Shown here piece after piece: positions 12-54,390 of a stretch of 64,000 bases of DNA. The position numbers and the translations under genes are program-made. How positions within the stretch are numbered: the first letter of the stretch is position 1; each line of letters starts with the position of its first letter. The stretch lies in IMG/VR virus record IMGVR_UViG_3300017971_000228, positions 1-64,000 of that record; one strand, written 5' to 3'. The notes below the pieces were generated by a model. The model had not been told where the DNA came from, searched no databases, and was given only the letters and a program-made list of their open reading frames with translations. Source of the DNA: a virus.

Positions 12-167
12 ATGTACCGCATGAGTACATTCAACCCACCAGACCCATGCCTACACCATCCTGAGCTCAAGCTCGATCTCGACACCTACGAAGATTATCA
101 AAGACTGCTGGCCAGCGGGGTGGACATAGACATGACGGCGGCTGAGATTGTGAGGTGCTTCCTATGA
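12..167 (+). CDS. Small hypothetical protein, possibly truncated at the window edge
   Basis: A 51-residue frame starting at an ATG at position 12 and ending in a TGA that overlaps the next gene's start codon (ATGA). The frame stays open to the window edge, so the true start may lie upstream. The product is acidic in the middle and has no motif I recognise. The stop/start overlap suggests it belongs to the same operon as the NeuB-like gene that follows. Confidence 0.5.
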   Translation: MYRMSTFNPPDPCLHHPELKLDLDTYEDYQRLLASGVDIDMTAAEIVRCFL

Positions 168-1222
168 CGATCACTGAAGTATTCGACAAGTCCCCATCAT
201 ATCCCCTTCTGCGTCGCCCCTATCTCATCGCTGAGTGCGGCGTGAATCATGAGGGGAGCCTGGATCTGGCGCTGGAGCTGGTGCGGCTAGCAGCGCACGG
301 GGGAGCGGACGCGGTAAAGTTCCAGGCGTACCGCGCTGAGACGCTGGCTGTTACAGACAGTCCCGCATACTGGGACTTGCGTGAAGAACCGACGCTGAGC
401 CAGCGGGAGCTGTTCGCCAAGTACGACTTGTTGGGGGATGACGACTACCGCAGGCTGAAGGAAGAGTGCGACAAGTGCGGCGTGGACTTCCTGTTGACGC
501 CCTTCGATTTGCACTTCATCGAGCTGGCGGGTGAGCTGTGTCTGGCCATCAAGATTGCGTCGGCTGACATCACCTGCAAGCCGCTAGTGGAAGCGGTGGC
601 ACAGCAGGGCAAGCCGATACTTCTGTCCACGGGTGCGGCTACGTCGGAAGAGGTGGAGGACGCTATCGTCTGGACGCATGCCCTGCCGTTGGTACTTAGC
701 CATTGCGTTCTGAACTATCCGACGAAGGACATCAACGCCAACCTGAAGTACATCCCAGCGATGAAGGAGCGGTGGCCACAGTATTGGATGGGGTACTCGG
801 ACCACACTTTGCCGGGGGGCATGGAGGCGCTGGAAGCGGCGTGGTTGCTGGGCGCAGTGGTCTTGGAGAAGCACTTCACCCACGATAAGTACCTACGCGG
901 TAACGACCATTACCACGCCATGGACTGGCACGACATCGAAGACTTCCGCAAGTGGACGGACAGGGTGCTGAGGATGAGCCAGGTGGAGGACTTGACGAGC
1001 CAGGCACCTGCCATCCAGCACGCCAGGAGAAGTTTGGTGACGGCGGGGGTGCTGCCAGCGGGGCACAGGATCGACTACGATGATCTGACTTGGAAGCGTC
1101 CTGGCCACGGCATCAGCCCGAAGTCGGTAGACATCGTGGTGGGGATGATCACGTCGGGTTCGCTGGCAGCGGATCAGGTGCTGCAGTGGGAGAACTTGGT
1201 AATGGAGGTTAAGCATGGATAG
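164..1222 (+). CDS. neuB: N-acetylneuraminate synthase family protein (NeuB-like) with C-terminal SAF domain
   Basis: Predicted to condense phosphoenolpyruvate with an N-acetylated hexose to make a sialic-type nine-carbon sugar. The N-terminal TIM barrel shows the family strings IAECGVNHEG, AVKFQAY, IKIASADI and ILLSTGAAT. The C-terminal SAF (antifreeze-like) domain shows RRSLV and LTWKRPGHGISP, which match NeuB/PseI/LegI enzymes. The length of 352 residues is normal. I chose the ATG at 164 over a GTG at 155 because it forms an ATGA overlap with the upstream stop. The substrate (Neu, Pse or Leg type) cannot be told. Further genes of such a pathway lie at 4250, 6021 and 14480. Confidence 0.9.
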   Translation: MTITEVFDKSPSYPLLRRPYLIAECGVNHEGSLDLALELVRLAAHGGADAVKFQAYRAETLAVTDSPAYWDLREEPTLSQRELFAKYDLLGDDDYRRLKEECDKCGVDFLLTPFDLHFIELAGELCLAIKIASADITCKPLVEAVAQQGKPILLSTGAATSEEVEDAIVWTHALPLVLSHCVLNYPTKDINANLKYIPAMKERWPQYWMGYSDHTLPGGMEALEAAWLLGAVVLEKHFTHDKYLRGNDHYHAMDWHDIEDFRKWTDRVLRMSQVEDLTSQAPAIQHARRSLVTAGVLPAGHRIDYDDLTWKRPGHGISPKSVDIVVGMITSGSLAADQVLQWENLVMEVKHG

Positions 1223-6024: not shown

Positions 6025-6986
6025 GTTCGCGGTACTCCCTAGACCGAGTTCCCCTGGACAACGCCTGGGACGAGTTCGTTCAATCGTCTCCCGATCGCAC
6101 CATCTTCGCCCGCAAGCCTTACTTGGAAGGCGTGGGCGCTCAGCTCGGGACGTGGTTTTGCACCAAGGGGGAGCAGATCAAGGCAGCGTTCTTCGGTGTA
6201 GAGGGGGCGCATGGGCTAGAGGAAGATGACTTGGTGATCTATTCAGGCGTCCTTCACCAGAAGCCCGAGCCGGACCAGAATATCTCCCAAGCACGGTCTG
6301 ACAGGTTCAAGGTGATGGAGTTCATCGCGGCGGAGCTGCCCAAGACCTACAAAGTGATGGATTTTCAATTCAACACCAGCATCGTAGACATGCGTCCTTG
6401 GCTCTGGCATAACTATCACGAAGGCCCAAGGTATCAGGTGGAGGCGCGGTATACGAGCTACTTTGCGATTGGGCAGTATGGGTGGGGAGAGGAGGGTTCC
6501 AAGAGAGCGGGTGAGCAGATGAGCCAGAGCCGCCGGCAGCAGATCGCCTACGCGCAGCGGGACGGGATCAAGGTCATCCATACGAAGCCCTGCATAGACG
6601 CCTTCCTGAACTGGTACGGGCATACGGTAGAGGGGACGGATGCCTGGTTCGTATCACGCCTTCGGCACCTGCTGATTCATCTGGACAAGGTGAATCTGAC
6701 ACGGTGGTATGTGGCCCTGTCGCCGATGGGTGAGGGCAGGGCCTTGGCGGTCTTTGGTGTGGACGGGGGAAGGGCCTACTATCTCTGGGGAGCACGCCAG
6801 CCGGATCACAAGGACAGTCCGGCGGGCACGGAGGTGGTCTGGGAAGCGATGGTGGATCTGGCGAATCAGGGGATTCCGTGGACGGATTTGGAAGGCGTGA
6901 ACAGTCCGCGACGCGGATGGTTCAAGCTATCCTTTGGCGGAAGCCTGATTCCCTATTTCAGAGTGAGGTATGACGCATGCGTCTGA
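6021..6986 (+). CDS. FemAB/GNAT-like transferase
   Basis: A 321-residue protein resembling FemAB-type GNAT-fold transferases seen in exopolysaccharide clusters. It has an N-terminal acceptor-like half (residues 1-130) and a C-terminal half with SRRQQIAYAQRDGIKVIHT, then WYVALSPMGEGRALAVFGVDGGRAYYLWGA and a final FKLSFGG, which follows the usual FemAB ending. It probably transfers an acyl or aminoacyl group to a sugar or lipid-linked acceptor; the donor is unknown. The ATGA overlap with the upstream stop supports the start. Confidence 0.7.
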   Translation: MSSRYSLDRVPLDNAWDEFVQSSPDRTIFARKPYLEGVGAQLGTWFCTKGEQIKAAFFGVEGAHGLEEDDLVIYSGVLHQKPEPDQNISQARSDRFKVMEFIAAELPKTYKVMDFQFNTSIVDMRPWLWHNYHEGPRYQVEARYTSYFAIGQYGWGEEGSKRAGEQMSQSRRQQIAYAQRDGIKVIHTKPCIDAFLNWYGHTVEGTDAWFVSRLRHLLIHLDKVNLTRWYVALSPMGEGRALAVFGVDGGRAYYLWGARQPDHKDSPAGTEVVWEAMVDLANQGIPWTDLEGVNSPRRGWFKLSFGGSLIPYFRVRYDACV

Positions 6987-7174
6987 TGTGGGAGGTAACT
7001 GATTGGGAAAGATACAACTATCACCATGAATGGCCCTGGTGGGTACGTCGTTGTGATTACAACCCTGTGCGGAGAAGCGTTCTGTTTGCCAGCATGCCTG
7101 TTGCTTTGATCTGGCGGTTCACGCGATGGGTGCAACGTAGACTGTATAATTCAAGGGAGAATACTTGCGCGTAA
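6977..7174 (+). CDS. Small basic hypothetical protein
   Basis: A 65-residue, Trp- and Arg-rich protein overlapping the preceding gene by 10 bases. A weak hydrophobic segment (SVLFASMPVALIW) is flanked by arginines, so peripheral membrane association is possible. No family is recognised. Confidence 0.45.
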   Translation: MRLMWEVTDWERYNYHHEWPWWVRRCDYNPVRRSVLFASMPVALIWRFTRWVQRRLYNSRENTCA

Positions 7175-7377
7175 AGACTCGGGAATTTGAGGGCCAGCTA
7201 TGGATGCCGACAGGGCTTAAGTGTCCTGACTGTGGTATGGAGATGTGGGTTCAGGTTGATCCTGACTGTACTGAGCCAGGTGGGTGTCTGGAATGTGGGT
7301 ATCGCGGATGGAAGCATGGAGGATTCATGCCGAGCACTGAGGAGATGGTGGAGGAGTTTCTGAAATCATGCAAATAG
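7165..7377 (+). CDS. Small zinc-ribbon protein
   Basis: A 70-residue protein, probably starting at the TTG at 7165, with CAAGGGAGA upstream. It contains CPDCGMEMW, then a second pair CLECGYRGW, a four-Cys zinc ribbon. It is one of many tiny CxxC proteins in this genome. The function is unknown; it may bind nucleic acid or protein. Confidence 0.6.
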   Translation: MRVKTREFEGQLWMPTGLKCPDCGMEMWVQVDPDCTEPGGCLECGYRGWKHGGFMPSTEEMVEEFLKSCK

Positions 7378-7850
7378 CACGACGCCAGTTCCTGAAGATG
7401 ATGGGGGCCTTCGGCGCATCATTGGCGGCTGAAGGCTTGGCACCCAAGGGGATTATCAAGCCAGCGGAGCTGGTGCTGCCCAAGGAGCCAACGGTGGTGG
7501 GGCCTATGCCAAGGAAAGGTGGTGGCATATCCAACTTCGTTGAGATAGGCTTGGCTGGGCATACAATCACAATAGAGAATCCCCTCATTACGGATTACAC
7601 AGTTGACGGAACTTTGTTGTACGTTGATCGGCCGTCGTATGCGACTGTGAACATAACGATGTTGGTAGATGGTGTAGCGTTATCTCTTGTAGATAACTGG
7701 GTCGCCACCAATATGCACGGCAAGGGGGGTATTCTTCGCATTCCACAGTATGCAGCAGAATGGCTCTGTGTTTTCTGTGGTTCGCCGCAACCGATGATTC
7801 GGACGCACTGCTCTCAGTGCGGAGGAGCTAGAGATTGGGTGGTAGAATAG
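7368..7850 (+). CDS. Predicted Tat-exported protein with C-terminal zinc ribbon
   Basis: A 160-residue protein with a textbook twin-arginine signal: ARRQFLK at residues 4-10, then a moderately hydrophobic stretch (MMGAFGASLAAEGLA). The mature part is beta-rich (DYTVDGTLLYVDRPSYATV) and ends in a four-Cys zinc ribbon (CVFCGSP, then HCSQCGGARDW). Folding around a metal before export would explain use of the Tat route. A TatA-like protein is encoded at 13907 and a second RR-signal protein at 14086. The function is unknown; a cell-surface or exclusion role is speculation. Confidence 0.7.
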   Translation: MQIARRQFLKMMGAFGASLAAEGLAPKGIIKPAELVLPKEPTVVGPMPRKGGGISNFVEIGLAGHTITIENPLITDYTVDGTLLYVDRPSYATVNITMLVDGVALSLVDNWVATNMHGKGGILRIPQYAAEWLCVFCGSPQPMIRTHCSQCGGARDWVVE

Positions 7851-7866
7851 ACAGAAAGGGATAACG

Positions 7867-8031
7867 ATGGATGCTCAAACTTCAGAGGTTACAATCACTA
7901 AGGCCAAAGGGGGCTACGTAATTGATCCGCTGACTGGCAAGCTAGAAGTCTATACTAATCCCGTGGTGGCCTTGGATCAGATCAGGGTGTTACTTGACAT
8001 GAGTGGGGTTGAAGTTAGGGAGAAAGAGTGA
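7867..8031 (+). CDS. Small hypothetical protein
   Basis: A 54-residue frame from the ATG at 7867 (preceded by AAAGGGATAACG) to a TGA that overlaps the next GTG start (GTGA). The sequence is mixed-charge with a single predicted strand-helix pattern (GGYVIDPLTGKLEVY, then VALDQIRVLLDMSG). The tight spacing argues that it is a real gene. Confidence 0.55.
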   Translation: MDAQTSEVTITKAKGGYVIDPLTGKLEVYTNPVVALDQIRVLLDMSGVEVREKE

Positions 8032-8846
8032 CGCTCCCCATCACCGTCGCCGTCTGCACCAAGAACGCCGAGTCCTACATCGAACGCTGCCTGGAAGCGG
8101 TGATCGCCAATCAGCCAGCGCAGATCATCGTCGTGGACGCCTGCTCCGGCGACAAGACCTGGCACATCATCAAGGACTGGCCGGGGATCTTTCCCGTCGC
8201 CAAGTACGGAGTCGGGTTAGCGTCGCAGCGGCAGATCGCCTTGAGCTACACCAACCAGCCCTACTACGCAGCCGTGGACTGCTTCCACATCCTCTACCAA
8301 CGCTGCTTGCTGGACTTGATGCGCGAGATGGACTGGTACGGGTTCCAGGCCATCCAGGCCAGGGAGTGGCAGGTGCCCAGCGAGAACTGGTGGACCAACG
8401 CCCGCGCCAGTGCGAACTACGACATCACCACCATGCCGCACGTCGAGGAGACCAACATGGTGGGCAGGCCGGCGCTGTACCGAACCAAGGCACTGAGGGC
8501 CATTGGGGGCTTCGATAGCAAGTTCGACTTCGTGGGCGATGAAGACACGGACGTCAGTATCCGCATGGAGATGGCGGGCTATCGCATGGGGCACGGGACG
8601 GGCATCGCCAAGCGGCTCGACGAGCTGGATTATCATTCGGCCATGCGGAAGTTCGTCAAGTACGGACGAGGCGACGCCAGGATCGTTCGCAAGTACCCAC
8701 GGAAGCGATTGGCGATCATCCGGCACCAGCTGTGGACGTATCCCTGGAGGCGGGGGCTGAAGCATCTGGAGTATTGGCCCTACTACGCATTGTGCGGGTG
8801 GGTGAGGTTTGGAGCGATGATGAAGGAGTTGACACGTGGCGAATGA
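8028..8846 (+). CDS. Family 2 glycosyltransferase (GT-A fold)
   Basis: A 272-residue protein. The N-terminus (ITVAVCTKNAESYIERCLEAVIAN, then IIVVDACSGDKTW) is the GT2 nucleotide-binding start. A variant metal site lies around YYAAVDCFHIL, and there is a C-terminal acceptor region (AIGGFDSKFDFVGDEDTDVSIRM) typical of this family. It probably adds a sugar to a glycan or protein acceptor. One exact copy of the dispersed motif (8628-8638) lies inside the gene, coding Asp-Tyr-His-Ser. Start GTG overlaps the upstream TGA. Confidence 0.88.
   Translation: MTLPITVAVCTKNAESYIERCLEAVIANQPAQIIVVDACSGDKTWHIIKDWPGIFPVAKYGVGLASQRQIALSYTNQPYYAAVDCFHILYQRCLLDLMREMDWYGFQAIQAREWQVPSENWWTNARASANYDITTMPHVEETNMVGRPALYRTKALRAIGGFDSKFDFVGDEDTDVSIRMEMAGYRMGHGTGIAKRLDELDYHSAMRKFVKYGRGDARIVRKYPRKRLAIIRHQLWTYPWRRGLKHLEYWPYYALCGWVRFGAMMKELTRGE
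8628..8638 (+). repeat. Dispersed motif GATTATCATTC, exact copy 1
   Basis: Exact 11-base copy inside the GT2 gene, read as Asp-Tyr-His-Ser. It is one of eight exact copies in the window, all on the + strand. Confidence 0.75.
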
Positions 8847-9078
8847 TCGGCTCTGGCTAGAGTGCAAAAAGTGCCATGAACGGATCATGCTCTACAAGTA
8901 CTATCCGAGTGGCGGTTACGTTCCGATTGATTCGATTCACAGCATCGGCGAGTTCATTCGCTATCATGCCCTGAATTGCTCAGGCGATGGATTGGACTTG
9001 GGTAGACCAGAAGATTGGCTTGGATTGGTGTCAGACTTGAAGGAGTACTGGGAGGGCTATGATGGGCGCGTGGTATGA
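8836..9078 (+). CDS. Small zinc-type hypothetical protein
   Basis: An 80-residue protein with a GTG start overlapping the GT2 gene. CKKCHERIMLYK gives one CxxCH pair, with a later His/Cys (HALNC) that could complete a metal site. No family is recognised. Confidence 0.55.
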   Translation: MANDRLWLECKKCHERIMLYKYYPSGGYVPIDSIHSIGEFIRYHALNCSGDGLDLGRPEDWLGLVSDLKEYWEGYDGRVV

Positions 9079-10099
9079 CCGACTGGCAGACACCGTTCCC
9101 GCATGGCTGGCAACGCTGAAGTCTCCCAACGGACTCTACAAGCACTCTGCTTCAGCCTACCACGAAGAATCGCTGGACGCGACGACGCTGGCGCTGGATC
9201 TGGAGCAGATGCTGAGTATGCTTCCATCGAAGTCCGGCGTCAAGTTCATCAAGTCCTGTCAGAACGGAACAACTGGTGAAGTACGGGAGCCGTTCTATCG
9301 GGAGCTGAGTGCCGAGGGACGCTTGCGCGAGATGGCGCATACCTACTCTGGTTGCCAGGTAGCGGCGCTGTTCATGGCGATAGACGCCCATCTGCAGAGT
9401 GAGTTCAAGTTCTACCGCCAGTTCCTATATCCAGGGGCGATCTCCCACTACATGATTCACAACATGCCTTGGGATACCAAACCCATGGGCGCGGGCAACA
9501 TGGTGGACGCGGCGGCGACCATGATGCGGTACAACGTCCGCATGCAGCACAAGCACGCCTACTGGCACGTCATCAATGAGATGTACCAGTGGCTAGATGA
9601 GCACCAAAGAACCTGGGAACACGGTTTCTGGGGCAGTGAGGCTGAGCAGGGCGTCAGCGGCGTAGTGCAAGCGGGCTATCACATATTGAGGGGACTGCAC
9701 TGGCAGGATGGGCGATACTATACGGACAATCACATGGAATCCACCGTCTTTGAGGCCATGGATCACCCATCAGCACCCAAGGACGCTTGTCACTACATGG
9801 ACTGCACAGTACTGGCAGAGCATTTGAGTCAGCTATGCCCTGGCTGCAAGATTGACAGGGAAATCGCGGAACTGGCAATAGAAGACCTAGAAGAGTTCCA
9901 TCGTGACGACGGCGCATTTTCATTCAGTCCCGACGGGGCCATAGACAACCACAACCTGTACGACGTGAGTCCTGGCAACCTGGAGTCCGACATCGTGGGG
10001 ACGGTGTTCTGCATGCAGGCGCTGAGATCGGCGCTGCATGTGCTGGGGGAGGAGGTGCCGTGGGGAGAATCAGCTACGCATGGAGTAAGGAGAGGATAG
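9059..10099 (+). CDS. Putative alpha-toroid (six-hairpin or prenyltransferase-like) protein
   Basis: A 346-residue protein, mainly helical, with repeated Trp/His/Gly helical hairpins. Toroid-like signatures include EESLDATTLALDLEQML, DGAFSFSPDGAIDNHNLYDVSPGNLESDIVGT and regularly spaced helix pairs, as in terpene cyclase or glycoside-hydrolase (alpha/alpha)6 barrels. The closest family cannot be named by eye. Its place between a GT2 enzyme and methyltransferases suggests a role in sugar or lipid modification. Confidence 0.5.
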   Translation: MMGAWYDRLADTVPAWLATLKSPNGLYKHSASAYHEESLDATTLALDLEQMLSMLPSKSGVKFIKSCQNGTTGEVREPFYRELSAEGRLREMAHTYSGCQVAALFMAIDAHLQSEFKFYRQFLYPGAISHYMIHNMPWDTKPMGAGNMVDAAATMMRYNVRMQHKHAYWHVINEMYQWLDEHQRTWEHGFWGSEAEQGVSGVVQAGYHILRGLHWQDGRYYTDNHMESTVFEAMDHPSAPKDACHYMDCTVLAEHLSQLCPGCKIDREIAELAIEDLEEFHRDDGAFSFSPDGAIDNHNLYDVSPGNLESDIVGTVFCMQALRSALHVLGEEVPWGESATHGVRRG

Positions 10100-10387
10100 A
10101 TGGCTGAAGACAAGTTCACTGCCCAAGACATTACGCATATCCAATTCTGGCGTTGGACCGTACTGGAGACGGAAACGAAGGCCGAAGCGATCACGCATCT
10201 CTACGTTCCCACGGATGCACCGCAAGAGGATCATGACAGAGCGGATGAGCTTTTGTGCATCATTCGTCCTGCGATTCAGGAAGCAGCAGATCGCGGGTGG
10301 TACTTTGAGACGTTCTACAAGATGAGTACGCCTCTGGAGCAGTTGAATGAAGAGTGGCAGGTTGTCATGAAACAGGAGGAGGGGTAA
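10100..10387 (+). CDS. Hypothetical protein
   Basis: A 95-residue acidic protein beginning directly after the previous stop, with AAGGAGAGGATAG upstream as ribosome site. No motif is recognised. Its stop codon (TAA) shares a base with the next ATG. Confidence 0.55.
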   Translation: MAEDKFTAQDITHIQFWRWTVLETETKAEAITHLYVPTDAPQEDHDRADELLCIIRPAIQEAADRGWYFETFYKMSTPLEQLNEEWQVVMKQEEG

Positions 10388-10527
10388 TGCCTGATGCGAA
10401 GGTAGTGCTAGTCTGCCCGGAATGCTATGGGACGGACGTAGCGATTGAGGAACGGAAGTCGCCGGGGGGTGCGGGTGATGATGACGGAGCTACGCCAGAT
10501 CCGATTGCCGGGGTCTCTAGTAGGTGA
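10387..10527 (+). CDS. Small protein with one CxxC; possible first half of a zinc ribbon
   Basis: A 46-residue frame from the ATG at 10387 to the TGA at 10525. It contains VLVCPECYGTDVAI, half a zinc ribbon, and then a Gly/Asp-rich linker. The matching second half (ATCKECGYEVEW) is read in the +1 frame of the overlapping gene. Either the two are separate overlapping genes, or one zinc-ribbon gene has been split or uses frameshifting. Confidence 0.45.
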   Translation: MPDAKVVLVCPECYGTDVAIEERKSPGGAGDDDGATPDPIAGVSSR

Positions 10528-10639
10528 TGGGATGGTTTACTGGGTGGCGACGTGCAAGGAGTGTGGCTATGAAGTGGAGTGGGTGACGCGCAGGGAGGGT
10601 GGCGCTGGCGACAGCGACGTTCAGCAAGCAGAACTATGA
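10478..10639 (+). CDS. Small protein with one CxxC; possible second half of a zinc ribbon
   Basis: A 53-residue protein starting at one of the ATGs at 10478 or 10481, out of frame with the preceding small gene. It carries ATCKECGYEVEW. Alone it has only one Cys pair; joined to the upstream frame it would make CPEC plus CKEC, a full ribbon. Its 3' end overlaps the methyltransferase start by 41 bases. Confidence 0.45.
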   Translation: MMTELRQIRLPGSLVGDGMVYWVATCKECGYEVEWVTRREGGAGDSDVQQAEL

Positions 10640-11192
10640 CGCCTATCGCGGCGAAGTAGAGTTCCTTGCGCCCTGCGTGGCAGCGGCAATCGTAGAAGTG
10701 CTGAATCCCAGCAGCGTAGTAGAGCTAGGCTGTGGGCTGGGGATCTATCTTCGAGAACTGGCAGAGTTGGGTGTGAAGGTACGGGGGTATGAGTTCTCGC
10801 CGGACGCTATCACCTTCACGGAAGCTCCGGAGGGGACAGTACTGCGGCACGATCTGACATCGGCGCTATTCGCTCACCGTCGGTACGACCTAGCGCTATC
10901 CAACCAGGTGGCGGAACACATCGAGGAGCGGTTCGCCGACCATCTGGTGCATCTGATGACGGACCTGAGCGACGTAGTGTACTGGTCGGCGGCAAGGCCG
11001 GGGGCCGGGGGGCAGCATCACGTAAACGAGCAGTGGCCACCCTACTGGCACAAGCTCTTTGGAAGGAGGGGATACCGACAGGACGAAGAGTTGGCAGAAC
11101 GAGTGAAAGCGGAGATCAAGACACGGTGCCCCCGCGTCGGGTGGGGGCACCACATCTATACCGATTGCATGATGTACGTCAGGGATTCATGA
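10599..11192 (+). CDS. Class I SAM-dependent methyltransferase
   Basis: A 197-residue protein. Motif I is VVELGCGLGIYLREL with VRGYEFSP as the acidic strand-2 end; a motif IV region (YDLALSNQVAEHIEE) follows. It is short for the fold but complete through the main strands. The target is unknown; a small-molecule or sugar methylase is likely from the surrounding genes. The GTG at 10599 has GGGAGGG upstream. Confidence 0.8.
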   Translation: MALATATFSKQNYDAYRGEVEFLAPCVAAAIVEVLNPSSVVELGCGLGIYLRELAELGVKVRGYEFSPDAITFTEAPEGTVLRHDLTSALFAHRRYDLALSNQVAEHIEERFADHLVHLMTDLSDVVYWSAARPGAGGQHHVNEQWPPYWHKLFGRRGYRQDEELAERVKAEIKTRCPRVGWGHHIYTDCMMYVRDS

Positions 11193-11899
11193 TGTCAGAT
11201 TATCATTCAGTGGCAGGCGTTGTGCCTGAGTGGGTAGAGACTAGGACAAGGAGGGCGGGATTGACGACCTGGAATGACTGTTATGAGGGGGGCATGGGGA
11301 ATCTGAGGTATCCGGATGAAGTGATCGTCCAGAGCATCCACCATCTGGGGCTTCATCCCTACCAGGCAAAGAAGGCGCTGGATCTGGGGTGCGGGAGCGG
11401 GCGGCATCTGGAGATGTTACACCGGCAGGGGTATGAGGTGTGGGCGGTAGACGGTGAAGAACGGGCGCTGAAGCTGGTACAGAGCCGCTGGGAGTTGCCT
11501 GGGCTGCATACGGTTCAGATGCGGTTCCCGCCGGTGAAGTTCCCCGACGGATTCCTGGATCTGGTGCTGATGGTGAACGTGCTGGAGCACAACGTCGCTG
11601 AGGATCGGGAAGAGTTAGTGCGGGAGGTGTACCGGATGCTGGGTAGTGGGGGCACCTTCATCTCACGCCATGCCGGGTGGACGGGCGCTCCACCGGACGG
11701 GGCCACGAAGCAGGTAGAGGAACGCAGTTGGCAGCGGGACAAGGATACCTTTGTCCATCTGTACACGGAAAGCGAACTGCTGGAGATCATGGTAGAGGTA
11801 GGATTCTCAGGAGTGCAGGTAGGTAGCCGGCGGGGGACCTACCCCTGGCTGAAGTGGGTGGATGAGAAGGAAATCTACGTGGTGGCCACCAAAGCGTGA
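11189..11899 (+). CDS. Class I SAM-dependent methyltransferase
   Basis: A 236-residue methyltransferase. It has motif I ALDLGCGSGRHLEML, VWAVDGEERAL, and LDLVLMVNVLEHNVAEDREELV as the post-I/IV region, a pattern of the Methyltransf_11/25 group. The ATG at 11189 overlaps the upstream TGA. The dispersed motif lies at codons 4-7 (11198-11208), coding Asp-Tyr-His-Ser, so it sits right behind the start codon. Confidence 0.85.
   Translation: MMSDYHSVAGVVPEWVETRTRRAGLTTWNDCYEGGMGNLRYPDEVIVQSIHHLGLHPYQAKKALDLGCGSGRHLEMLHRQGYEVWAVDGEERALKLVQSRWELPGLHTVQMRFPPVKFPDGFLDLVLMVNVLEHNVAEDREELVREVYRMLGSGGTFISRHAGWTGAPPDGATKQVEERSWQRDKDTFVHLYTESELLEIMVEVGFSGVQVGSRRGTYPWLKWVDEKEIYVVATKA
11198..11208 (+). repeat. 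Dispersed motif GATTATCATTC, exact copy 2
   Basis: Exact copy immediately behind the start codon of the second methyltransferase gene, where a bound protein could affect transcription or translation. Confidence 0.75.
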
Positions 11900-12978
11900 A
11901 CGAACGCGAACGCTTCCACGCAGTAATGCACTATGAGGCTGCGGACCGAGTACCCTTCTGGGAGGTGGGGTTCTGGGATGAAACGCTGATCCGGTGGTAC
12001 GAAGAGGGGTTGCCGATCACGGACAATTCCTGGGACCAACTGAAGACCTTGGGTCTGGACTGGTCCTTCGCCATGACCAACATTGCCATCGCTGAGTTCC
12101 CTCTGGCAGCGACGGAGGTGCTGGATGAGACGGACCAGCGGCAGCTATATCGGGATGAGTACGGCCGGATAGGCTGGCGACTGAAGGCACAGACAAGCAT
12201 GACGGAATTCGTCAGCTATCCGGTGACGGATCGAGAGAGCTGGGAGAAGGTACGGGAGCAGTACGTTCGGGTCTTCGACGCACGGGATCGCTACTGGATG
12301 GCGCACGCTATCGGCAGCAAGCGTCCCATCCCCATGGGGTTGACGGTAGGGAGCTTCTACGGGGAGCTGAGGGCCCTTCTGGGGTTTGAACGCTTCTGCA
12401 TCCTACTGTATGACGATGCTGACTTCATCAGGGAGATGCTAGCCTTCTTGACGAACGAGATGCTGCGACGGATGGAGGGAACGCGGCATCTGGAGTTTGA
12501 CTACGCCAAGTTCTGGGAGGACATGGCCTACAGCGGGGGGAGCTTCATGTCTCCGGCGATGTGGCGGGAGTTCCTGCAGCCCTGCTACGCAGCGGTAGCG
12601 GATGCACTACACGCACGAGACATCGACATTATCATGGTGGATTCGGACGGGGACGTGAACGAACTGATCCCGCTGTGGCTGGAGGTAGGCATCAACTGTC
12701 CCTTCCCCATGGAAGCGAGATACCATGACCTGATGGCGCTGAAGAAGCAGTACGGGCGAGAGTTGCGGATGTGTGGTGGGGTGAACAAGCAATCGCTGTA
12801 CGGCACGCGGGAGTGGATAGATCGGGAGGTGTTTCTGAAGACACGATACTTGATTCGGCAGGGGGGGTATATCCCAACGGTGGACCATGCCGTGCCGCCG
12901 CACGTAAGCCTGAGCAACTATGCGTACTTCCGGCGGGCGCTGGCGTTGGTGGCGGATGAGGTAGGGTGGGATGCGTGA
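11896..12978 (+). CDS. Uroporphyrinogen decarboxylase-like (URO-D superfamily) protein
   Basis: A 360-residue URO-D fold protein. The start NERERFHAVMHYEAADRVPFWE is the standard URO-D/MtaA opening, and there are internal stretches such as HARDIDIIMVDSDGDVNELIPLWLEVGINCPFPME and a C-terminal GGYIPTVDHAVPPHVSLSNYAYF. The superfamily covers heme-precursor decarboxylases and corrinoid methyltransferases. The C-terminal pattern looks more like the large uncharacterised methyltransferase-like group of anaerobes than true HemE. Its GTG start overlaps the upstream TGA. Confidence 0.8.
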   Translation: MNERERFHAVMHYEAADRVPFWEVGFWDETLIRWYEEGLPITDNSWDQLKTLGLDWSFAMTNIAIAEFPLAATEVLDETDQRQLYRDEYGRIGWRLKAQTSMTEFVSYPVTDRESWEKVREQYVRVFDARDRYWMAHAIGSKRPIPMGLTVGSFYGELRALLGFERFCILLYDDADFIREMLAFLTNEMLRRMEGTRHLEFDYAKFWEDMAYSGGSFMSPAMWREFLQPCYAAVADALHARDIDIIMVDSDGDVNELIPLWLEVGINCPFPMEARYHDLMALKKQYGRELRMCGGVNKQSLYGTREWIDREVFLKTRYLIRQGGYIPTVDHAVPPHVSLSNYAYFRRALALVADEVGWDA

Positions 12979-13468
12979 GGTGACCAAGTTGCTACTCGTG
13001 CCGCACGCTAGTACAGACTGGAATGAGATGGGGAAGTATCAGGGGTGGCGTGATATCCATCTCAATCAGCGTGGACGGAAAATGGCTAATGAACTTGCAA
13101 GGCGACTAGCGTCTGAACCTATAGCGGCAATCTATAGCAGCGACCTAAGCCGAGCTATGGAGACAGTACGCGCGGTTTGGACCACTCACCAAGTACCTTG
13201 GTACGTTGAACCCAGGTTGCGAGAGTTCAGGCAGCCTAGCGACCAGCGGATGCTGGCAATGTGTGATCAAGTCTATGATGCCCTGGAATCCATTGCCCAG
13301 GCTTATGTAGGCATGACGGTGCTTGTCGTCATGCACGGTGGTCCGCTACGGGTGTTCCTGCGCAGGATCATCCTTGACTATGCAGATGAATGTAGGGGGC
13401 TCCAATGCCATGTGAATCGTGTAAACTACTTGGACGGCAAGTGGGAGGTGGTAACTCTGGATGAATGA
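12971..13468 (+). CDS. Histidine phosphatase (phosphoglycerate-mutase-like) with altered RHG motif
   Basis: A 165-residue member of histidine phosphatase branch 1: LLLVPHASTDWNEMGKYQGWRDIHLNQRG at the N-terminus, YSSDLSRAMETV, and a second His in VVMHGGPLRVF. The canonical Arg-His-Gly is Pro-His-Ala here, so the catalytic His is kept but the phosphate-binding Arg is lost. The protein is also shorter than the usual ~200 residues in the centre. It may act on sugar phosphates, as GmhB/cobalamin-type relatives do, or be a weak enzyme. Confidence 0.8.
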   Translation: MREVTKLLLVPHASTDWNEMGKYQGWRDIHLNQRGRKMANELARRLASEPIAAIYSSDLSRAMETVRAVWTTHQVPWYVEPRLREFRQPSDQRMLAMCDQVYDALESIAQAYVGMTVLVVMHGGPLRVFLRRIILDYADECRGLQCHVNRVNYLDGKWEVVTLDE

Positions 13469-13498
13469 GCAGCCGTATACCCAGCACGAGGATAAGGG

Positions 13499-13885
13499 GT
13501 GGTGAAGAAGGCTGAACGCAAATTGCTGTTCTCGGTAACGCGCAATGACTTCGAAGTGCAGACGTTTCGATCCGGTGGGCCGGGTGGGCAGTACCAGAAC
13601 AAGCGAGATTCGGGGATACGCATCATCCACAAAGCGTCTGGTGCTCGTGGTGAAGCGAGAGATCAACGAAGTCAGGCGCAGAACAAGAAGGCGGCATTCA
13701 GACGCATGGTAGCAACGCCAGAGTTTCAGACCTGGCTCAAGGTGCGGGCGGGAGAAGCTGCACTGACAGAGGGGCAGAAAGAGTTGCTGCGCCAGCGGAT
13801 GGAACGGGCAGTAGATAGGCAGATGGCAGGAGAGAACCTTTTGGTAGAACACAAGGTTGATGGGCAATGGGTGGTACAGACATAG
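13499..13885 (+). CDS. Peptide-chain release factor-like protein (GGQ domain only)
   Basis: This 128-residue protein is a stand-alone RF-1 domain. FRSGGPGGQYQNKRDSGIRI holds the GGQ tripeptide (near residue 27) that triggers peptidyl-tRNA hydrolysis, followed by a basic tail (EARDQRSQAQNKKAAFRRM). It lacks codon-recognition domains, as in ArfB/YaeJ or PrfH-type proteins, which rescue stalled ribosomes. It probably acts on host ribosomes during infection or lysogeny. It is separated by 21 bases from the tatA-like gene. Confidence 0.85.
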   Translation: MVKKAERKLLFSVTRNDFEVQTFRSGGPGGQYQNKRDSGIRIIHKASGARGEARDQRSQAQNKKAAFRRMVATPEFQTWLKVRAGEAALTEGQKELLRQRMERAVDRQMAGENLLVEHKVDGQWVVQT

Positions 13886-13906
13886 ATAAGCAATGAAGGG
13901 GGAAGA

Positions 13907-14074
13907 ATGCCAACACTAGGACCGCTGGAACTGGGGATCATACTGGTCATCGCCATCGCCATCTTCGGCGTTGGTAAGATAGCCGACATCGGCAAGGAAG
14001 CCGGGCGCAGTGTGAAGGAGTTCAAGAATGCACTGCGAGAGACCAAGGGGCTTGATGACGTTATCAATGAATAG
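13907..14074 (+). CDS. tatA: TatA/TatE-family twin-arginine translocase subunit
   Basis: A 55-residue protein, start ATG 13907 with a GAAGGGGGAAG ribosome site. It matches the TatA plan: short N-terminus GPLELGIILVIAIAIFG (one helix with the conserved Glu near residue 8), the hinge FGVGKI, then an amphipathic helix (IGKEAGRSVKEFKNALRE) with the conserved FK. TatA forms the oligomeric pore-like element of Tat export. The next gene, 12 bases downstream, encodes a protein with a possible RR signal, and another lies at 7368. A Tat component on a phage is unusual. Confidence 0.88.
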   Translation: MPTLGPLELGIILVIAIAIFGVGKIADIGKEAGRSVKEFKNALRETKGLDDVINE

Positions 14075-14085
14075 GGAGGACAACA

Positions 14086-14490
14086 ATGGATCGACGCGAA
14101 CTGCTCAAGAAGCTGCTGGGGGGAGCCGCTGGGGGAGTGATAGCCCTGGGCTTGCCCAAGGATATGGACATCGATACCTGCGATGAGGACGTGCTGGACT
14201 TACTGGCAGAGAAGATCGCAGAGAAGGTGGCAGAGCGGATAGGGCCCGCAGAGGATGATTTGATAGATGCGTCTCCGATGATGCCATACCCAGAGGAACC
14301 TATCATCACGATTAGAACGGTGCCATATCCACAGACTGTTACGGACAATTCAACTGGTTCGTATGGGATAGATTGGGGTACAGGCGGCAGTGTACTCTAT
14401 GACGACAACTCTACTGCGTGGAAGTTCTCAGGAAGTGGCGGGGTAGTATCGTGTTTGGGAGTAGCCGGATCAGCGGTTGATGTCTCCTAA
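14086..14490 (+). CDS. Putative Tat-targeted or membrane-anchored protein
   Basis: A 134-residue protein starting MDRRELLKKLLGGAAGG. It has twin Arg followed by LLKK and a hydrophobic stretch (LLGGAAGGVIALGLP), resembling a Tat signal or tail anchor. A helical acidic linker (LDLLAEKIAEKVAERIG) and a Gly/Ser/Asp-rich C-terminus without recognised domain follow. It is directly downstream of the TatA-like gene, with GGGAGGA upstream of the start. The RRELLKK motif is weaker than the RRQFLK of the protein at 7368. Confidence 0.6.
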   Translation: MDRRELLKKLLGGAAGGVIALGLPKDMDIDTCDEDVLDLLAEKIAEKVAERIGPAEDDLIDASPMMPYPEEPIITIRTVPYPQTVTDNSTGSYGIDWGTGGSVLYDDNSTAWKFSGSGGVVSCLGVAGSAVDVS

Positions 14491-15529
14491 CACCATCATC
14501 GCCATCCGCGCACGGACGCGGAGTTCACGGCTACACTCAAAGTGCCTGCAACCACTGGCAGGGAAGCCAGCTATCGTCCACGTAGGCGAACGGGCGGGGT
14601 TACTGCGGGACGTAGCGGATCGAGCGGTCTTCTGCATTCCTGACGGCAGGGCTGATGACGAACTGGCGGCGGTGCTAGGGGAACACTTCGGGGAGGATGA
14701 TTTCTACGCTGTCCACCGCGGACCGGAGTGGGACCCGGTGAGGCGGACGTGGGGCGCCATCGAGGAACACGAGGCGCAGATTATCATTGAGGGGCTGCAT
14801 GGGGATGCACCGCTGGCCTACATGGGATTCGTACGCCCGGCACTGCAACTGTTGGGACAACGCCCAGATCTGGACTGCGTCCGCTACGAGAACCTGGAAT
14901 GCCAGGTGACGATGGAGCATCTGGCCTGCCACGCCTGGCCAGTACGGCGAAGCTGGTGGGAGAAGACGGTCACGCTGAGGCCCAAGTCGGCAGGCTATCA
15001 GGAGCACCCCACGGCCTTCTTCACCGGCTACCCGGAGCAGTTCAAGGTGGGATTCCTGCCGGATGAGAACTTCTTCAGGCTGAGGCAGGACAGGTTTGGT
15101 CGGCCCTGGGATACCCGCTACTGCCTAGACTACCCGGAAGATCTGGTGTTCCTGGGAACGCTCTTCGAAGAGCTGTACAAAGACAAGCCCATCACGCTGA
15201 AGGAGGCAGTGCAATACGTGAACGCCCGTCCGCACCTACGGGCGCTGAACGCTTCCAGGGCAGAGTCGGTTCTGGTATACCCGACGGCGGTGCAGAAGCG
15301 GAAGTGGCGGCGGGCCTACGGGGAATGGGCGACGCCGGAGGGGTGTGAGCCGGTGCTGTGTGTGAACGGCAGCTGCTTCCTGGGGTGGGTGGATCCAGAA
15401 GACCGTGACAGGGACCAGCGACTGCATGGTTTGGACGGGAGCGTATGGAAGCGGGGGACGGTGAACTGTGAGTGCGGGGCGGGGCGAAGCGCAGTATGGA
15501 CGGGGGACAGGCGAGTCTGGCTGAAGTGA
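14480..15529 (+). CDS. CMP-sugar synthetase (NeuA/SpsF-like cytidylyltransferase)
   Basis: A 349-residue GT-A-fold nucleotidyltransferase. The N-terminal signature IIAIRARTRSSRLHSKCLQPLAGKPAIVHV is that of NeuA/KdsB/SpsF cytidylyltransferases, and a DTRYCLDYPEDLVFL stretch follows near residue 215. It would activate a nonulosonic acid made by the NeuB-like enzyme. The C-terminal ~110 residues are an unexplained extension with several Cys residues (VLCVNGSCFLGW, then VNCECGAGRS). Start: ATG 14480 rather than the adjacent TTG. Confidence 0.82.
   Translation: MSPNTIIAIRARTRSSRLHSKCLQPLAGKPAIVHVGERAGLLRDVADRAVFCIPDGRADDELAAVLGEHFGEDDFYAVHRGPEWDPVRRTWGAIEEHEAQIIIEGLHGDAPLAYMGFVRPALQLLGQRPDLDCVRYENLECQVTMEHLACHAWPVRRSWWEKTVTLRPKSAGYQEHPTAFFTGYPEQFKVGFLPDENFFRLRQDRFGRPWDTRYCLDYPEDLVFLGTLFEELYKDKPITLKEAVQYVNARPHLRALNASRAESVLVYPTAVQKRKWRRAYGEWATPEGCEPVLCVNGSCFLGWVDPEDRDRDQRLHGLDGSVWKRGTVNCECGAGRSAVWTGDRRVWLK
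14779..14789 (+). repeat. Dispersed motif, variant GATTATCATTG
   Basis: Ten of eleven bases match the best form; it lies inside the cytidylyltransferase gene, read as Ile-Ile-Ile, a frame different from copies 1-3. Confidence 0.65.
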
Positions 15530-16096: not shown

Positions 16097-17572
16097 ATGC
16101 CAGATGAGACAAAACTGACGAGGGCCACCTTTGGCGAGTTGGGGGCGGCGGGCCTGAACCGCTATGGCGGCACGGTAGACAACGACTTCATCAAGGACCT
16201 GGAGCGAGCGACTTCCCGGTTCAAGATATTCACGGAGATGCGGCTGAACGATCCGGTCATTGGCGCGATTCTGTTCCTGGTGGAGCAGATGCTGCGCCGT
16301 GTCGTTTGGATGGTAGAACCTTCAGACCCGACGGATGACGTGGCCGTAGAACGGGCAGAGTTCATCGAATCCTGCATGGCAGACATGAGCCACACCTGGA
16401 ATGACTTCATCAGCGAAGCCATCACCTTCCTGCCCTACGGGTGGAGCTGGTTTGAACAGGTTTTCAAGAAGCGGCTAGGTCCAAAGCCGAAGAACTACTG
16501 CAAGGATCCCGCCCCATCATTGCACAACGACGGGCTAGTGGGCTGGCGCAAGTTCGCCGTTCGGGCGCAGGAATCCCTAGACCGATGGGACTTCGACGAG
16601 AACGGCGGCATCCAGGGCATGTACCAGCGACCAGCGCCGGACTACGTAGAGCGGTACATCCCTATTGACAAGTCGCTGCTGTTTCGGACGAGAGTAGAAC
16701 TGAACTCGCCGGAGGGGCGGAGTGTCCTGAGACACGCCTACCGCAGTTATCACTTCAAGAAAAATCTTGAGGTCATCATGGGCATCGGCGCGGAACGAGA
16801 TCTGGCGGGTATGCCGGTGATCTACCTGCCGCCGGGGGCCACGAAGGATGACTACGACCAGGCGCGGAAGGTCGTGGAGCGAGTAAGGGTAGACGAATAC
16901 TACGGACTTACCATCCCCGGTCCCAAGGCGACCAACATGGAGGCAGCCAGGGAGGGTGGGTGGTTGTTCGAGCTGGTCGTCAGTGGCGGGCGGCACTCCT
17001 TTGCCCTGGTGGAGATGCTGGAGTACTACGACCGACGCATGTCCATGGCCGTGCTGGCGCAGTTCATCATGCTGGGCAGCGGTTCGGTAGGCAGCTTCGC
17101 ACTTTCACGGGACCATTCGGAGATCTTCCTAAAGGCGCTGGAGGGGTGGGCGACGATGATAGCGGAGACCATCAACCGTCACGCCATCCCCAAGCTGATG
17201 CGCATGAACGGCTGGGATGAAGCACAGTCCCCGCAGCTGAAGCCTTCGGGTCTACTGAGAGCTGACATCGGCGAATTGAGTAACCTGATCATGGCCTTTG
17301 GCCAGGCGGGGTTGGATCTGCGTGACATCGAGGACCATATCCGGTCGCAGGCGAACCTGCCGCCCAGGACGGAAGAGGCGAAGCTGGTAGAGCCGATCAA
17401 GCCCATGAACCAGCGGAAGCCTGAAGTACCTGAAGAAGAAGAAGTAGAGAAGGCGGAACCCTGGCATCTGGTGGGGCGGATTCCGACGAGGGATGAGATT
17501 CTGGCGGGCTACCGGATCACGCCAGCGGATAGGGAACTGGTCGCAGCGGAGTTCGAGAAGGTGCTGGGGTGA
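16097..17572 (+). CDS. Phage portal protein (DUF935/Mu gp29-like)
   Basis: A 491-residue portal subunit, the dodecameric ring through which DNA enters the head. Portal-like features are FKIFTEMRLNDPVIGAILF near residue 45, a clip/stem region around residues 200-300, and SMAVLAQFIMLGSGSVGSFALSRDHSEIFL near residue 315, typical of DUF935-type portals. The acidic C-terminal tail (PEVPEEEEVEKAEP) is common. It is the first gene after the late promoter/terminator leader. No terminase is adjacent. Confidence 0.88.
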   Translation: MPDETKLTRATFGELGAAGLNRYGGTVDNDFIKDLERATSRFKIFTEMRLNDPVIGAILFLVEQMLRRVVWMVEPSDPTDDVAVERAEFIESCMADMSHTWNDFISEAITFLPYGWSWFEQVFKKRLGPKPKNYCKDPAPSLHNDGLVGWRKFAVRAQESLDRWDFDENGGIQGMYQRPAPDYVERYIPIDKSLLFRTRVELNSPEGRSVLRHAYRSYHFKKNLEVIMGIGAERDLAGMPVIYLPPGATKDDYDQARKVVERVRVDEYYGLTIPGPKATNMEAAREGGWLFELVVSGGRHSFALVEMLEYYDRRMSMAVLAQFIMLGSGSVGSFALSRDHSEIFLKALEGWATMIAETINRHAIPKLMRMNGWDEAQSPQLKPSGLLRADIGELSNLIMAFGQAGLDLRDIEDHIRSQANLPPRTEEAKLVEPIKPMNQRKPEVPEEEEVEKAEPWHLVGRIPTRDEILAGYRITPADRELVAAEFEKVLG

Positions 17573-27344: not shown

Positions 27345-28307
27345 ATGCCCTCACCAACTCTCAAAGATTTGCATGTTAACAGCGTGCTAACGGAGATGTC
27401 CATCGCCTATCGGAACGATGCGTACATCGCAGACCGGGTTTTTCCCTTGGTCAATGTTGACAAACAGTCTGATATCTATGCTCTGTACACCAAGCAAGAC
27501 TGGTTCCGAGACGAGGCGCAGCGGCGTGCTCCGGGTGAAGAGGTGAAGACTAGTGGGTGGAACGTTGACACAACGAACACCTACTACTGCATCAACTACG
27601 CTCTGGGCAAGGACATCCCTGACGAAATCGCCGCCGGCGCAGATGACGTGTTCGACCTGGACCGGGACGCCACCATCTTCGTGACGGACAAGCTGCAGCT
27701 CAGGCGTGAGATCGAGTGGGCGGCAGACTTCTTCACCACGGGCGTGTGGGGAACGGATGCCACCTTCAGTGCCACCACACGGTGGAATGTGTACGCCAGC
27801 TCGGATCCACTGAGCGACGTGCATGACGGCATCGAGACCGTTCTACAGAATACGGGCAAGCGGCCCAACAAGTTCGTCATGGGCTACCAGGTGTTCAATG
27901 AGTTGCTGGACCACCCGGACATCCTGGATCGGATCAAGTACGGGGCGAGTTCCGGCAATCCGGCAGTGACCACGGAGATGGCACTGGCGCAGCTCTTCGG
28001 CGTGGATGAAGTGCTGGTAGCACGGGCCATCAAGACCACGAATATCGAGAAGAACGAATCGCCTACCATGAGCTTCGTGTGGGGGCAGCATGCGCTGCTT
28101 CTGTACGTGGCGCCACGGCCCAGCAGGCTGGAACCCAGTGCGGGCTACACCTTCGTGTGGAACCCGATGGGCGGACGCGGCCCTCAGATTATCAATCAGA
28201 GGCGTGATTCGGCCCGACACTGCGACGTGGTGGAAGCCATTGGGTACTGGGATTCGAAGCGTACCGCACAGGATTGTGGATATTTCTTCTCATCGGTCAC
28301 GGCGTGA
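27345..28307 (+). CDS. Major capsid protein (HK97-like fold)
   Basis: A 320-residue protein. PTLKDLHVNSVLTEMSIAY, YIADRVFPLVNVDKQSD, then RREIEWAADFFTTGVW and KRPNKFVMGYQVFNELLDHPDIL are typical of the capsid group found in many uncultured siphoviruses. A C-terminal VAPRPSRLEPSAGYTFVWNP and IGYWDSKRTAQDCGYFFSSV complete it. The strong AGGAGGATAACC ribosome site suits high expression. There is no long N-terminal delta domain; the separate scaffold-like protein may substitute. Confidence 0.85.
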   Translation: MPSPTLKDLHVNSVLTEMSIAYRNDAYIADRVFPLVNVDKQSDIYALYTKQDWFRDEAQRRAPGEEVKTSGWNVDTTNTYYCINYALGKDIPDEIAAGADDVFDLDRDATIFVTDKLQLRREIEWAADFFTTGVWGTDATFSATTRWNVYASSDPLSDVHDGIETVLQNTGKRPNKFVMGYQVFNELLDHPDILDRIKYGASSGNPAVTTEMALAQLFGVDEVLVARAIKTTNIEKNESPTMSFVWGQHALLLYVAPRPSRLEPSAGYTFVWNPMGGRGPQIINQRRDSARHCDVVEAIGYWDSKRTAQDCGYFFSSVTA

Positions 28308-52237: not shown

Positions 52238-52525
52238 ATGGCGGATAGACTAGAAGTCGACAGCCAATGGGTTGTCGCAACACTGAATACCATCTGCACC
52301 CAGGTCGCTGTGTTACCAAGCATAGAACAGCACCTGGCCAGACAGAACGACTCGATTGCGAAGATGCAGCAGAGAGCGCAGTTACGGGAAGACAGGTTGC
52401 GTGAACTGGAGCGACAGGCGCAAGCTAAGACGGCGCGGTGGAAGAGCTACTGCGCCTCTGGCATCAAGATCCTGGAAGCCCTGATCATTGCGTTCCTGCT
52501 GACCAAAGTTCTTGGAATGAGCTAG
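52238..52525 (+). CDS. Coiled-coil protein with C-terminal membrane helix
   Basis: A 95-residue protein: helical coiled coil (residues ~25-70; RLRELERQAQAKTARWK) and one C-terminal transmembrane segment (ILEALIIAFLLTKVLGM). It lies just before the endolysin, so a role as holin, antiholin or spanin-like protein is plausible. Confidence 0.6.
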   Translation: MADRLEVDSQWVVATLNTICTQVAVLPSIEQHLARQNDSIAKMQQRAQLREDRLRELERQAQAKTARWKSYCASGIKILEALIIAFLLTKVLGMS

Positions 52526-52548
52526 AGCATAGCAGGAGGGAATAGAAT

Positions 52549-54045
52549 ATGGGAAGCAAGCTGGGGATCCACGTCAACGTTCCGGAAGATGAGAATCGGT
52601 ACGTTGAGTTCTGCCGGGTAGCCAAACCTGCGGCTGTTCTACATCTGGACTTGGGCAACACGTCATTTCCAAGGCGAGTGAAGGAAGTTTCGCCCAACAC
52701 GCTCATCATCGGGCGGAAGTGGTTCGCGTCGCAACCGCTAGACAATCCAGAATCCCGAGCGGACCGTGCCGTTGGGGCAATGCTGGATTCAAGCTGTGGG
52801 CGTGAAGGGCTGATAGACGTCTGGGTAGTCTATAACGAGATTGGCCCCCACATCACCCATGACTACATGCGCTTTGACATGCGAGCCATGCAGCGACTTC
52901 ATGAAGCCAATCAGAAGGGGGCTGTTGGTAACTGGAGCGTCGGAACCCCCGACATCTATGACTGGTACTCGGGGTGGTTCCACGAGACGCTACGAGTTGC
53001 TGATTACCTTGCCATTCACGAGTACTGTGCCCCTGCGATGGATAGTCCCAGGGGGCTAGATGCTGCCAATCCAGGTGAGGGGTGGTTTACGTTGCGCTAC
53101 CGCAAGATGATGAGGGCCCTGCGGGAACAGAACCTGGGATTTTCAATCCCGCCACTGCTCATTACAGAGTGCGGCATTGATTCCGGCGCTGCTCATTGGG
53201 ACCCTGGAGCGCAAGGGGGGTGGCGTTCCTTCGCTTCGCCGCAGGAGTACCTGCGCCAGCTGAAGTGGTACGATTCCTACTTGCAGGGTGACGACTACGT
53301 AGCCGGAGCCGCCACCATCTTCTGCTGTGGGACGCACGACCCCACCTGGGACAGCTTCGACGTTCAGGGCGAGATGCTGGATCTGCTGCAGAACTACTTG
53401 GTGGAAGAGCAACAGGGCGACGACATTATCATTCCGCATCCCGACTGGCTGATGGACTTGCGCCACATACTCCCCAGGCACGTCACCAAGACCTACAGTC
53501 GGCGCAGCCTGGCCAACGTCACCCAAGTCGTCATCCACCATTCTGCCGTCGCCCCAACCGTGGGGCCCTGGCAGATAGCGGAGTATCACGTCGGTGTCAA
53601 GGACTGGCCTGGGCATGGCTATCATGCTGACATCGCCATGGACGGACGCGTGTGGCAGTGCCAGGATTGGGAGACTTGGTCCTACCATGCTGGCGCCGTC
53701 AACCCAACGTCCATCGGCATCTGCTTGCTGGGCAACTTCATGGGTGGTAGTGAACCTACGGACGCACAGATCGAGACCGCCCGCAAGCTCATCAGCCACC
53801 TGGAACAAGTGGTAGGGCATGACCTGGAAGTCGTGGGGCATCGGGAAGTCATGGACAACCGCGATTGCCCTGGCGACTCATTCCTTGGTGGGTGGAAGCA
53901 GCGGTTGTTGGATGGGGTGGAACCTGAGCCCGACTGGGAGGAGATGTACCACGCAGTTCAAGAGCGGTACGAAGCAGAAGTCGCAGAGAGTGGCAGATTA
54001 TCAACCTTGTTGGCAGATATCGAAGAGTTGGCGAAAGAGAGGTAG
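52549..54045 (+). CDS. Endolysin: glycosidase-like domain plus N-acetylmuramoyl-L-alanine amidase (Amidase_2)
   Basis: A 498-residue lysis enzyme. Residues 1-290 resemble a TIM-barrel glycosidase (GIHVNVPEDE, VVYNEIGPHITHDYMRF, IHEYCAP, PPLLITECGID as acid/base-like Glu sites). Residues ~320-450 are a PGRP/Amidase_2 domain (VTQVVIHHSA, YHADIAMDGRVWQCQ, GICLLGNF, GHREV, DCPGDSF) with the zinc His/Cys ligands. It ends in a short coiled tail. It would cut peptidoglycan with two activities. Variant motif CATTATCATTC lies at 53424. Confidence 0.82.
   Translation: MGSKLGIHVNVPEDENRYVEFCRVAKPAAVLHLDLGNTSFPRRVKEVSPNTLIIGRKWFASQPLDNPESRADRAVGAMLDSSCGREGLIDVWVVYNEIGPHITHDYMRFDMRAMQRLHEANQKGAVGNWSVGTPDIYDWYSGWFHETLRVADYLAIHEYCAPAMDSPRGLDAANPGEGWFTLRYRKMMRALREQNLGFSIPPLLITECGIDSGAAHWDPGAQGGWRSFASPQEYLRQLKWYDSYLQGDDYVAGAATIFCCGTHDPTWDSFDVQGEMLDLLQNYLVEEQQGDDIIIPHPDWLMDLRHILPRHVTKTYSRRSLANVTQVVIHHSAVAPTVGPWQIAEYHVGVKDWPGHGYHADIAMDGRVWQCQDWETWSYHAGAVNPTSIGICLLGNFMGGSEPTDAQIETARKLISHLEQVVGHDLEVVGHREVMDNRDCPGDSFLGGWKQRLLDGVEPEPDWEEMYHAVQERYEAEVAESGRLSTLLADIEELAKER
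53424..53434 (+). repeat. Dispersed motif, variant CATTATCATTC
   Basis: Ten of eleven bases match; it lies in the endolysin gene (Ile-Ile-Ile-Pro) near the domain linker. Confidence 0.6.
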
Positions 54046-54051
54046 CTTAGA

Positions 54052-54390
54052 ATGGATCTATTGCAGGCGTTCGCACAGGATCCGAGGGTTCGCACACTAG
54101 GGGGGCTGATTGTCCTGGATGTGGTGCTGGGCATTGCGGCCGCCCTCAGAACAGGTGAGTTTGACTGGCAGGAAGTGGGGCGGTTCTACACGTCCATGGT
54201 GCTTCCCATGATCCTGGGGTTCGCAGCGGTGTGGTTCGTGACCCCCTATCTGGTAGCGGACCTTCTCGGGCAGTACAGTGAAGTTCTGGGCCAGGCATTG
54301 GTGCTCTTGGCCTGGGGTACGTTAGTGGCACAGTTGGTGGCTTCTATCTTAGCTCACGTCAAGGAACTATGGGGCGCGGTTCCCGAGTGA
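54052..54390 (+). CDS. Holin-like membrane protein
   Basis: A 112-residue protein directly after the endolysin. It has three hydrophobic stretches (GGLIVLDVVLGIAAAL, VLPMILGFAAVWFVTPYLVADL, ALVLLAWGTLVAQLVASILA), consistent with a class I type holin. It is the last gene of the rightward late region. Confidence 0.7.
   Translation: MDLLQAFAQDPRVRTLGGLIVLDVVLGIAAALRTGEFDWQEVGRFYTSMVLPMILGFAAVWFVTPYLVADLLGQYSEVLGQALVLLAWGTLVAQLVASILAHVKELWGAVPE

Follow-up and report, generated by a model that had tools for sequence, protein, structure and literature searches.

Within a 64,000-nucleotide stretch of viral DNA, positions 1 to 64,000 of the 98,106 bp IMG/VR record IMGVR_UViG_3300017971_000228 (hereafter the window), we examined a short gene resembling tatA of the twin-arginine translocation (Tat) pathway together with two genes whose products begin with candidate Tat signals. 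The tatA gene (13907..14074, + strand) is preceded by the ribosome site AGGGGGA and encodes a 55-residue TatA-type subunit (MPTLGPLELGIILVIAIAIFGVGKIADIGKEAGRSVKEFKNALRETKGLDDVINE) whose C-terminal tail is very short. The gene for the first candidate substrate (134 residues; 14086..14490, + strand) starts 11 nt past the tatA stop codon behind its own ribosome site, AGGGAGG, and that for the second (160 residues; 7368..7850, + strand) lies 6.5 kb from tatA.

A first-pass annotation had read the complete TatA plan at 13907-14074, and sequence comparison confirms a TatA-type protein at exactly these coordinates. The product belongs to PF02416 (50.4 bits, E 1.3e-13; gathering cut-off 21) and covers 43 of the 47 positions of TIGR01411 (tatAE) with 50.6 bits; as this is below the naming cut-off of 53.9, the proposed family check succeeded with Pfam only, and we assign the protein through Pfam and its nearest homologues. 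The nearest solved structures in the PDB are B. subtilis TatAd, chloroplast TatA and E. coli TatA, and alignment to TatA of known structure revealed that Glu8, the F20-G21 hinge and F39-K40 are all retained. AlphaFold2 predicted one unbroken helix over residues 6-53 (predicted local distance difference test score, pLDDT, 74) from a shallow alignment, so the L shape is neither shown nor excluded by the model. The protein is almost tailless; the C-terminal tail of TatA is dispensable (PMC9527704).

A strict Tat rule, RR.[FL][LIVMF] within the first 14 residues together with 11 uncharged hydrophobic residues, matched only the 14086 and 7368 products among the ~150 genes of the window virus and none of the 223 genes on 16 control viral contigs, so the two N-termini stand above chance. 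The 14086 protein begins with MDRRELLKKLLGGAAGGVIALGLPKD, in which DRRELLKK is followed by 15 uncharged residues after KK, in agreement with the twin-arginine motif and hydrophobic stretch originally described. Its product has no Pfam or PHROG match, and we saw no AxA site, so the signal possibly serves as an uncleaved anchor. The 7368 protein begins with MQIARRQFLKMMGAFGASLAAEGLAPKG and ends with CVFCGSPQPMIRTHCSQCG, which carries a CxxC-x10-CxxC zinc-ribbon motif. The earlier description of a textbook signal here holds for the perfect ARRQFLK motif and the zinc ribbon, but not for the hydrophobic stretch, which is short and interrupted by a glutamate. We found no relative of this protein in viral and genome scans and no family match; weak Chloroflexota matches proved to be generic zinc ribbons or unrelated proteins, and a single-sequence structure model was poor (pLDDT 40). 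The 7368 start overlaps the end of a gene for a 70-residue CxxC-rich protein (7165..7377, + strand), an arrangement that probably reflects translational coupling. We trust 14086 more for its position and 7368 more for its motif, and neither fully; the 7368 signal is the weaker of the two.

We searched the 2.9 million contigs of IMG/VR with a TatA alignment and obtained one confirmed locus, in L012 (IMGVR_UViG_3300044981_000021, ~101 kb, exact end repeats). The L012 TatA as query added two more, in the related virus L015 (IMGVR_UViG_3300050821_002969, ~103 kb, exact end repeats) and in L016 (IMGVR_UViG_3300036760_000091, 58 kb, with a P22-like portal), and the L016 TatA as query yielded no further viral tatA in IMG/VR. 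A degenerate DNA pattern gave 13 matches in the same database, comprising these three loci and ten others that are not TatA, and the window TatA as a single-sequence query had no match in the viral scan. The scans add three viral tatA genes from two additional phage lineages, with TatA proteins of 55-58 residues. Examined DNA of the portal and capsid relatives of the window phage contained no tatA. Among named-phage records, those from Listeria and human faeces that we inspected carry tatC adjacent to tatA and are thus bacterial fragments rather than phage; L010 and L118, which entered the databases under phage names (Listeria phage LM 4-14-1 and Bacteriophage sp. MT837480), are fragments of bacterial chromosomes carrying tatA-tatC. 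TatA matches in Staphylococcus, Salmonella and Acinetobacter phage records were set aside, judged on size or annotation only.

Each of the further viral tatA genes adjoins either a single gene or a pair whose products begin with a textbook Tat signal of the form MNRR[KRH]FL. In L012 and L015, tatA is overlapped by a MNRR[KR]FLQ gene whose product begins with MNRRKFLQLAGLTGGGLVASATMAEAGAFAE or MNRRRFLQLAAGAGVATATMAEVGFFAE, and in L016 two MNRR.FL genes with N-termini MNRRHFLQSLLAVPALTLALA and MNRRRFLHLLTMAASAVAVS lie upstream of tatA. The L015 virus (G008) has a further Tat-signal gene far from tatA (L033:13229-13597; MNRREFFAALFGSLPALPIISVLF), and in L016 separate genes encode the terminase ATPase (2569-3408) and nuclease (6836-7528), the tat genes occupying the 3.4 kb in between. 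Comparing tatA of L012 and L015, the one close pair, gave a nonsynonymous divergence (dN) of 0.13 against a synonymous divergence (dS) of 0.90, and the gene is under purifying selection in these two viruses. The N-terminus of their substrates is conserved as well, with dN 0.30 and dS ~2.4, the latter near saturation, over the first 50 residues, the remainder having diverged. TatC was not found in any of the four tatA-bearing viral genomes, three of which are complete as judged by exact end repeats.

Part of the major capsid protein of their own phage group recurs in the products of the Tat-signal genes of L012 (5791-6387) and L015 (8165-8650). Aligned to the capsid protein of the L012 virus (phrog_1357), the two cargo proteins scored 100 and 86 compared to shuffled maxima of 52 and 50, and the L015 virus has the same capsid match at its own record end. 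The larger L016 cargo (3993-4376) bears a weak likeness to its own capsid family (phrog_283, E 0.077; 5 of 300 shuffles), and the window substrates have no resemblance to capsid protein.

In a tree of 44 rows and 56 columns, the rows chosen as best matches, the window TatA was placed among Chloroflexota TatA (96/87), whereas the L012 and L015 proteins paired together with Acidobacteriota TatA as nearest bacterial rows and the L016 protein fell elsewhere. Constraining the four phage rows to join cost 31 log units with p-AU (approximately unbiased test) 0.061, so that separate captures are favored by the sequences but not proven. The window TatA matched more than 80 of 393 genomes of a Chloroflexi class at E<=1e-8, compared to 4 of 296 Acidobacteriota genomes, and the bacterial relative of the window capsid protein with the highest identity (60% over the best segment) is in a Chloroflexi bin. 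Based on the tree, the genome counts and the capsid relative, we assign the window phage with moderate confidence to a host that is probably Chloroflexota.

We think it reasonably probable that tatA is a host-derived auxiliary gene by which the phage raises the Tat capacity of its host for phage-encoded, mostly uncharacterized cargo. In cells, TatA clusters at the substrate-loaded TatC (or TatBC) receptor and lets folded proteins pass. As the window virus has no TatC, any function must use that of the host: the phage TatA would enter the host membrane and partner the TatC already there, along with any TatB. The additional TatA, with subunits clustering at substrate-loaded receptors, would then help export of phage twin-arginine proteins, the neighboring 14086 product first and probably that of 7368. 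TatA is the Tat subunit best able to work with foreign partners, across species (PMC1550398), and is therefore the single component that would be of use to a phage without the others. The pairing of a lone tatA with twin-arginine cargo in three lineages is most readily understood as extra Tat capacity for phage cargo, and its recurrence in at least two viruses unrelated to the window phage suggests that some phages boost the export route of their hosts. Export, partnership with host TatC, the final location of the cargo, timing (lytic or lysogenic) and benefit are what we infer from this arrangement. The first-pass annotation had likewise proposed that the phage supplements host Tat, and the shared arrangement in two other lineages together with the absence of TatC from four genomes supports that part; surface placement, lysogeny and a zinc ribbon that must fold before export go beyond the evidence.

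Several observations weigh against added Tat capacity. The 14086 signal scores 14.7 bits with the TIGR01409 Tat-signal model, under its 16.7-bit cut-off, and the 7368 signal reaches no Tat-signal profile. The TATFIND rule calls for a twin-arginine motif and an uncharged stretch of ~13 or more residues, and in 7368 this stretch is broken by Glu22, leaving 11 residues. Neither window substrate has a known homologue. The control set for the strict rule is small, and the rule was drawn up after the first matches had been seen. The choice of best matches as tree rows and the p-AU value likewise count against the proposal.

An alternative is passenger capture, in which tatA was carried in along with host DNA and has little effect, and the neighboring twin-arginine N-termini are coincidental. 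In its favor, the surrounding island is rich in captured host genes and the window signals lie below profile thresholds. We nevertheless consider it unlikely given the repeated pairing of tatA with Tat signals in three lineages, the control contigs devoid of strict signals, and the purifying selection between L012 and L015.

A subunit supplied without TatC might instead poison or retune host Tat as a dominant-negative or competing partner, for example altering the envelope or excluding other phages. Some E. coli TatA F39 mutants are dominant negative (PMC1550398), but the phage protein retains F39 and the remaining critical residues, and the linked Tat-signal genes point to use of the pathway rather than its blockade, making such interference quite improbable.

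Slightly less probable still is a holin or membrane permeabilizer in which a short transmembrane segment and an amphipathic helix resemble TatA by chance. Small holins are frequent in phages and one of them, TpeE, has the TatA plan (PMC9527704). The homology of the window protein to TatA is, however, true sequence homology that includes residues TpeE lacks, and no Pfam or PHROG holin model matches it. Its gene also stands outside the lysis cassette (52238..54390, + strand), which comprises a transmembrane protein (52238-52525), an Amidase_2 endolysin (52549-54045) and a holin-like protein (54052-54390), so the endolysin has a holin-like neighbor of its own, 38 kb off. Together with the Tat-signal genes beside every viral tatA found, this leaves a holin role with little in its favor.

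We also considered the structure of the record. An exact 123-bp repeat is present at both of its ends (window 1-123 and L003 15984-16106). The genome is therefore either circular or redundant at its termini, ~97,983 bp long, and the record complete, despite its classification as linear in IMG/VR. Across the join, ~28 kb containing many captured genes separate the terminase (record 84845-86299) from the portal gene (16097..17572, + strand; PF06074, 105.6 bits; phrog_113), and the tat genes are inside this interval. The linear call and their place near one record end might indicate a chimeric contig or a prophage edge, in which the tat genes would be host DNA and not phage genes. In practice the end repeat rules this out by placing them between terminase and portal, and chromosomal neighbors such as tatC are missing, so we give this account almost no credence.

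The same 28-kb island encodes PseC-, PseG- and NeuB/PseI-like enzymes and cytidylyltransferases of the nonulosonate pathway, all scoring under naming cut-offs. A large part of such a pathway, of pseudaminic or legionaminic type, is spread over window 155-15529 and L003 10328-16106 within the terminase-portal interval, including a NeuB/PseI-type nonulosonate synthase of this surface-sugar island (155..1222, + strand; PF03102, with TIGR03569 and TIGR03586 below cut-offs) and an SpsF-like cytidylyltransferase gene that spans the record ends (L003 15458-16106 plus window 1-167) and has an in-frame TAA mid-gene. Directly upstream of tatA is an RF-1 domain peptidyl-tRNA hydrolase-like gene (13499..13885, + strand; PF00472, 60 bits; phrog_3122), and downstream a cytidylyltransferase-like gene (14477..15529, + strand; PF02348, 27.7 bits) overlaps the end of the 14086 gene. 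Beyond the portal, the interval leading to the major capsid protein gene (27345..28307, + strand; phrog_1005, E 1.3e-85) holds a radical-SAM/B12 protein, two related sulfotransferase-looking genes and a sulfatase (21080-25262). A serine recombinase (54610-56136) and a repressor-like helix-turn-helix protein (57041-57610) are encoded past the lysis cassette, and L002 contains several DNA methyltransferase-looking genes (starts at 3128, 6949, 9602 and 16501, for example).

Taken more broadly, and only tentatively, several unrelated phages may each have acquired a minimal TatA, with the phylum of their own host as the probable donor, and linked it to Tat cargo that the phage itself makes, with a capsid piece clearly included in one lineage and perhaps in a second. 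This would constitute a phage-directed route that puts folded viral proteins outside the cytoplasm in infection or lysogeny, an undescribed phage module. If phages do bring part of a general protein-export machine along with its cargo, Tat capacity could limit phage fitness, a TatA of 55-58 residues would be an evolved minimal form, and a viral tatA next to a twin-arginine gene would provide a rule for finding unknown phage proteins that act outside the cytoplasm. Consistent with the original claim of novelty, the searchable open literature yielded no paper on phage TatA and no description of a Tat subunit that a phage carries together with its own cargo; apparent mentions of TatA in two phage papers are TATA-type promoter motifs.

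Compared to known systems, the window protein is closest to the TatA/TatE/Hcf106 family (PF02416, TIGR01411), with which it shares the fold plan, Glu8, FG hinge and F39; unlike cellular TatA, it is phage-borne, without TatC and almost tailless at 55 residues, and the neighboring genes carry Tat signals but are not cellular Tat enzymes. The TpeE/BhlA small holins (PMC9527704) likewise place an amphipathic helix after a short transmembrane one, but have no sequence relation to TatA and need neither a twin-arginine signal nor TatC. Auxiliary genes by which phages change the envelope (lysogenic conversion, O-antigen, nonulosonate) offer another parallel, as the window likewise has host-derived genes in a surface-sugar island, although the genes of interest here encode a protein-translocase subunit and candidate cargo, not an enzyme. 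The L012/L015 and L016 loci likewise have a TatA of 55-58 residues, no TatC and adjacent Tat-signal genes, and differ in belonging to other phage lineages, in TatA subtype and in their unrelated cargo, which in L012/L015 has the capsid segment. Borrowed enzymes, photosystem parts and sugar pathways are familiar from phages. The TatA family and the capture of host genes by phages are already known; a phage-borne Tat subunit with phage cargo, not found in the open literature searched, has a real chance of being a distinct module.

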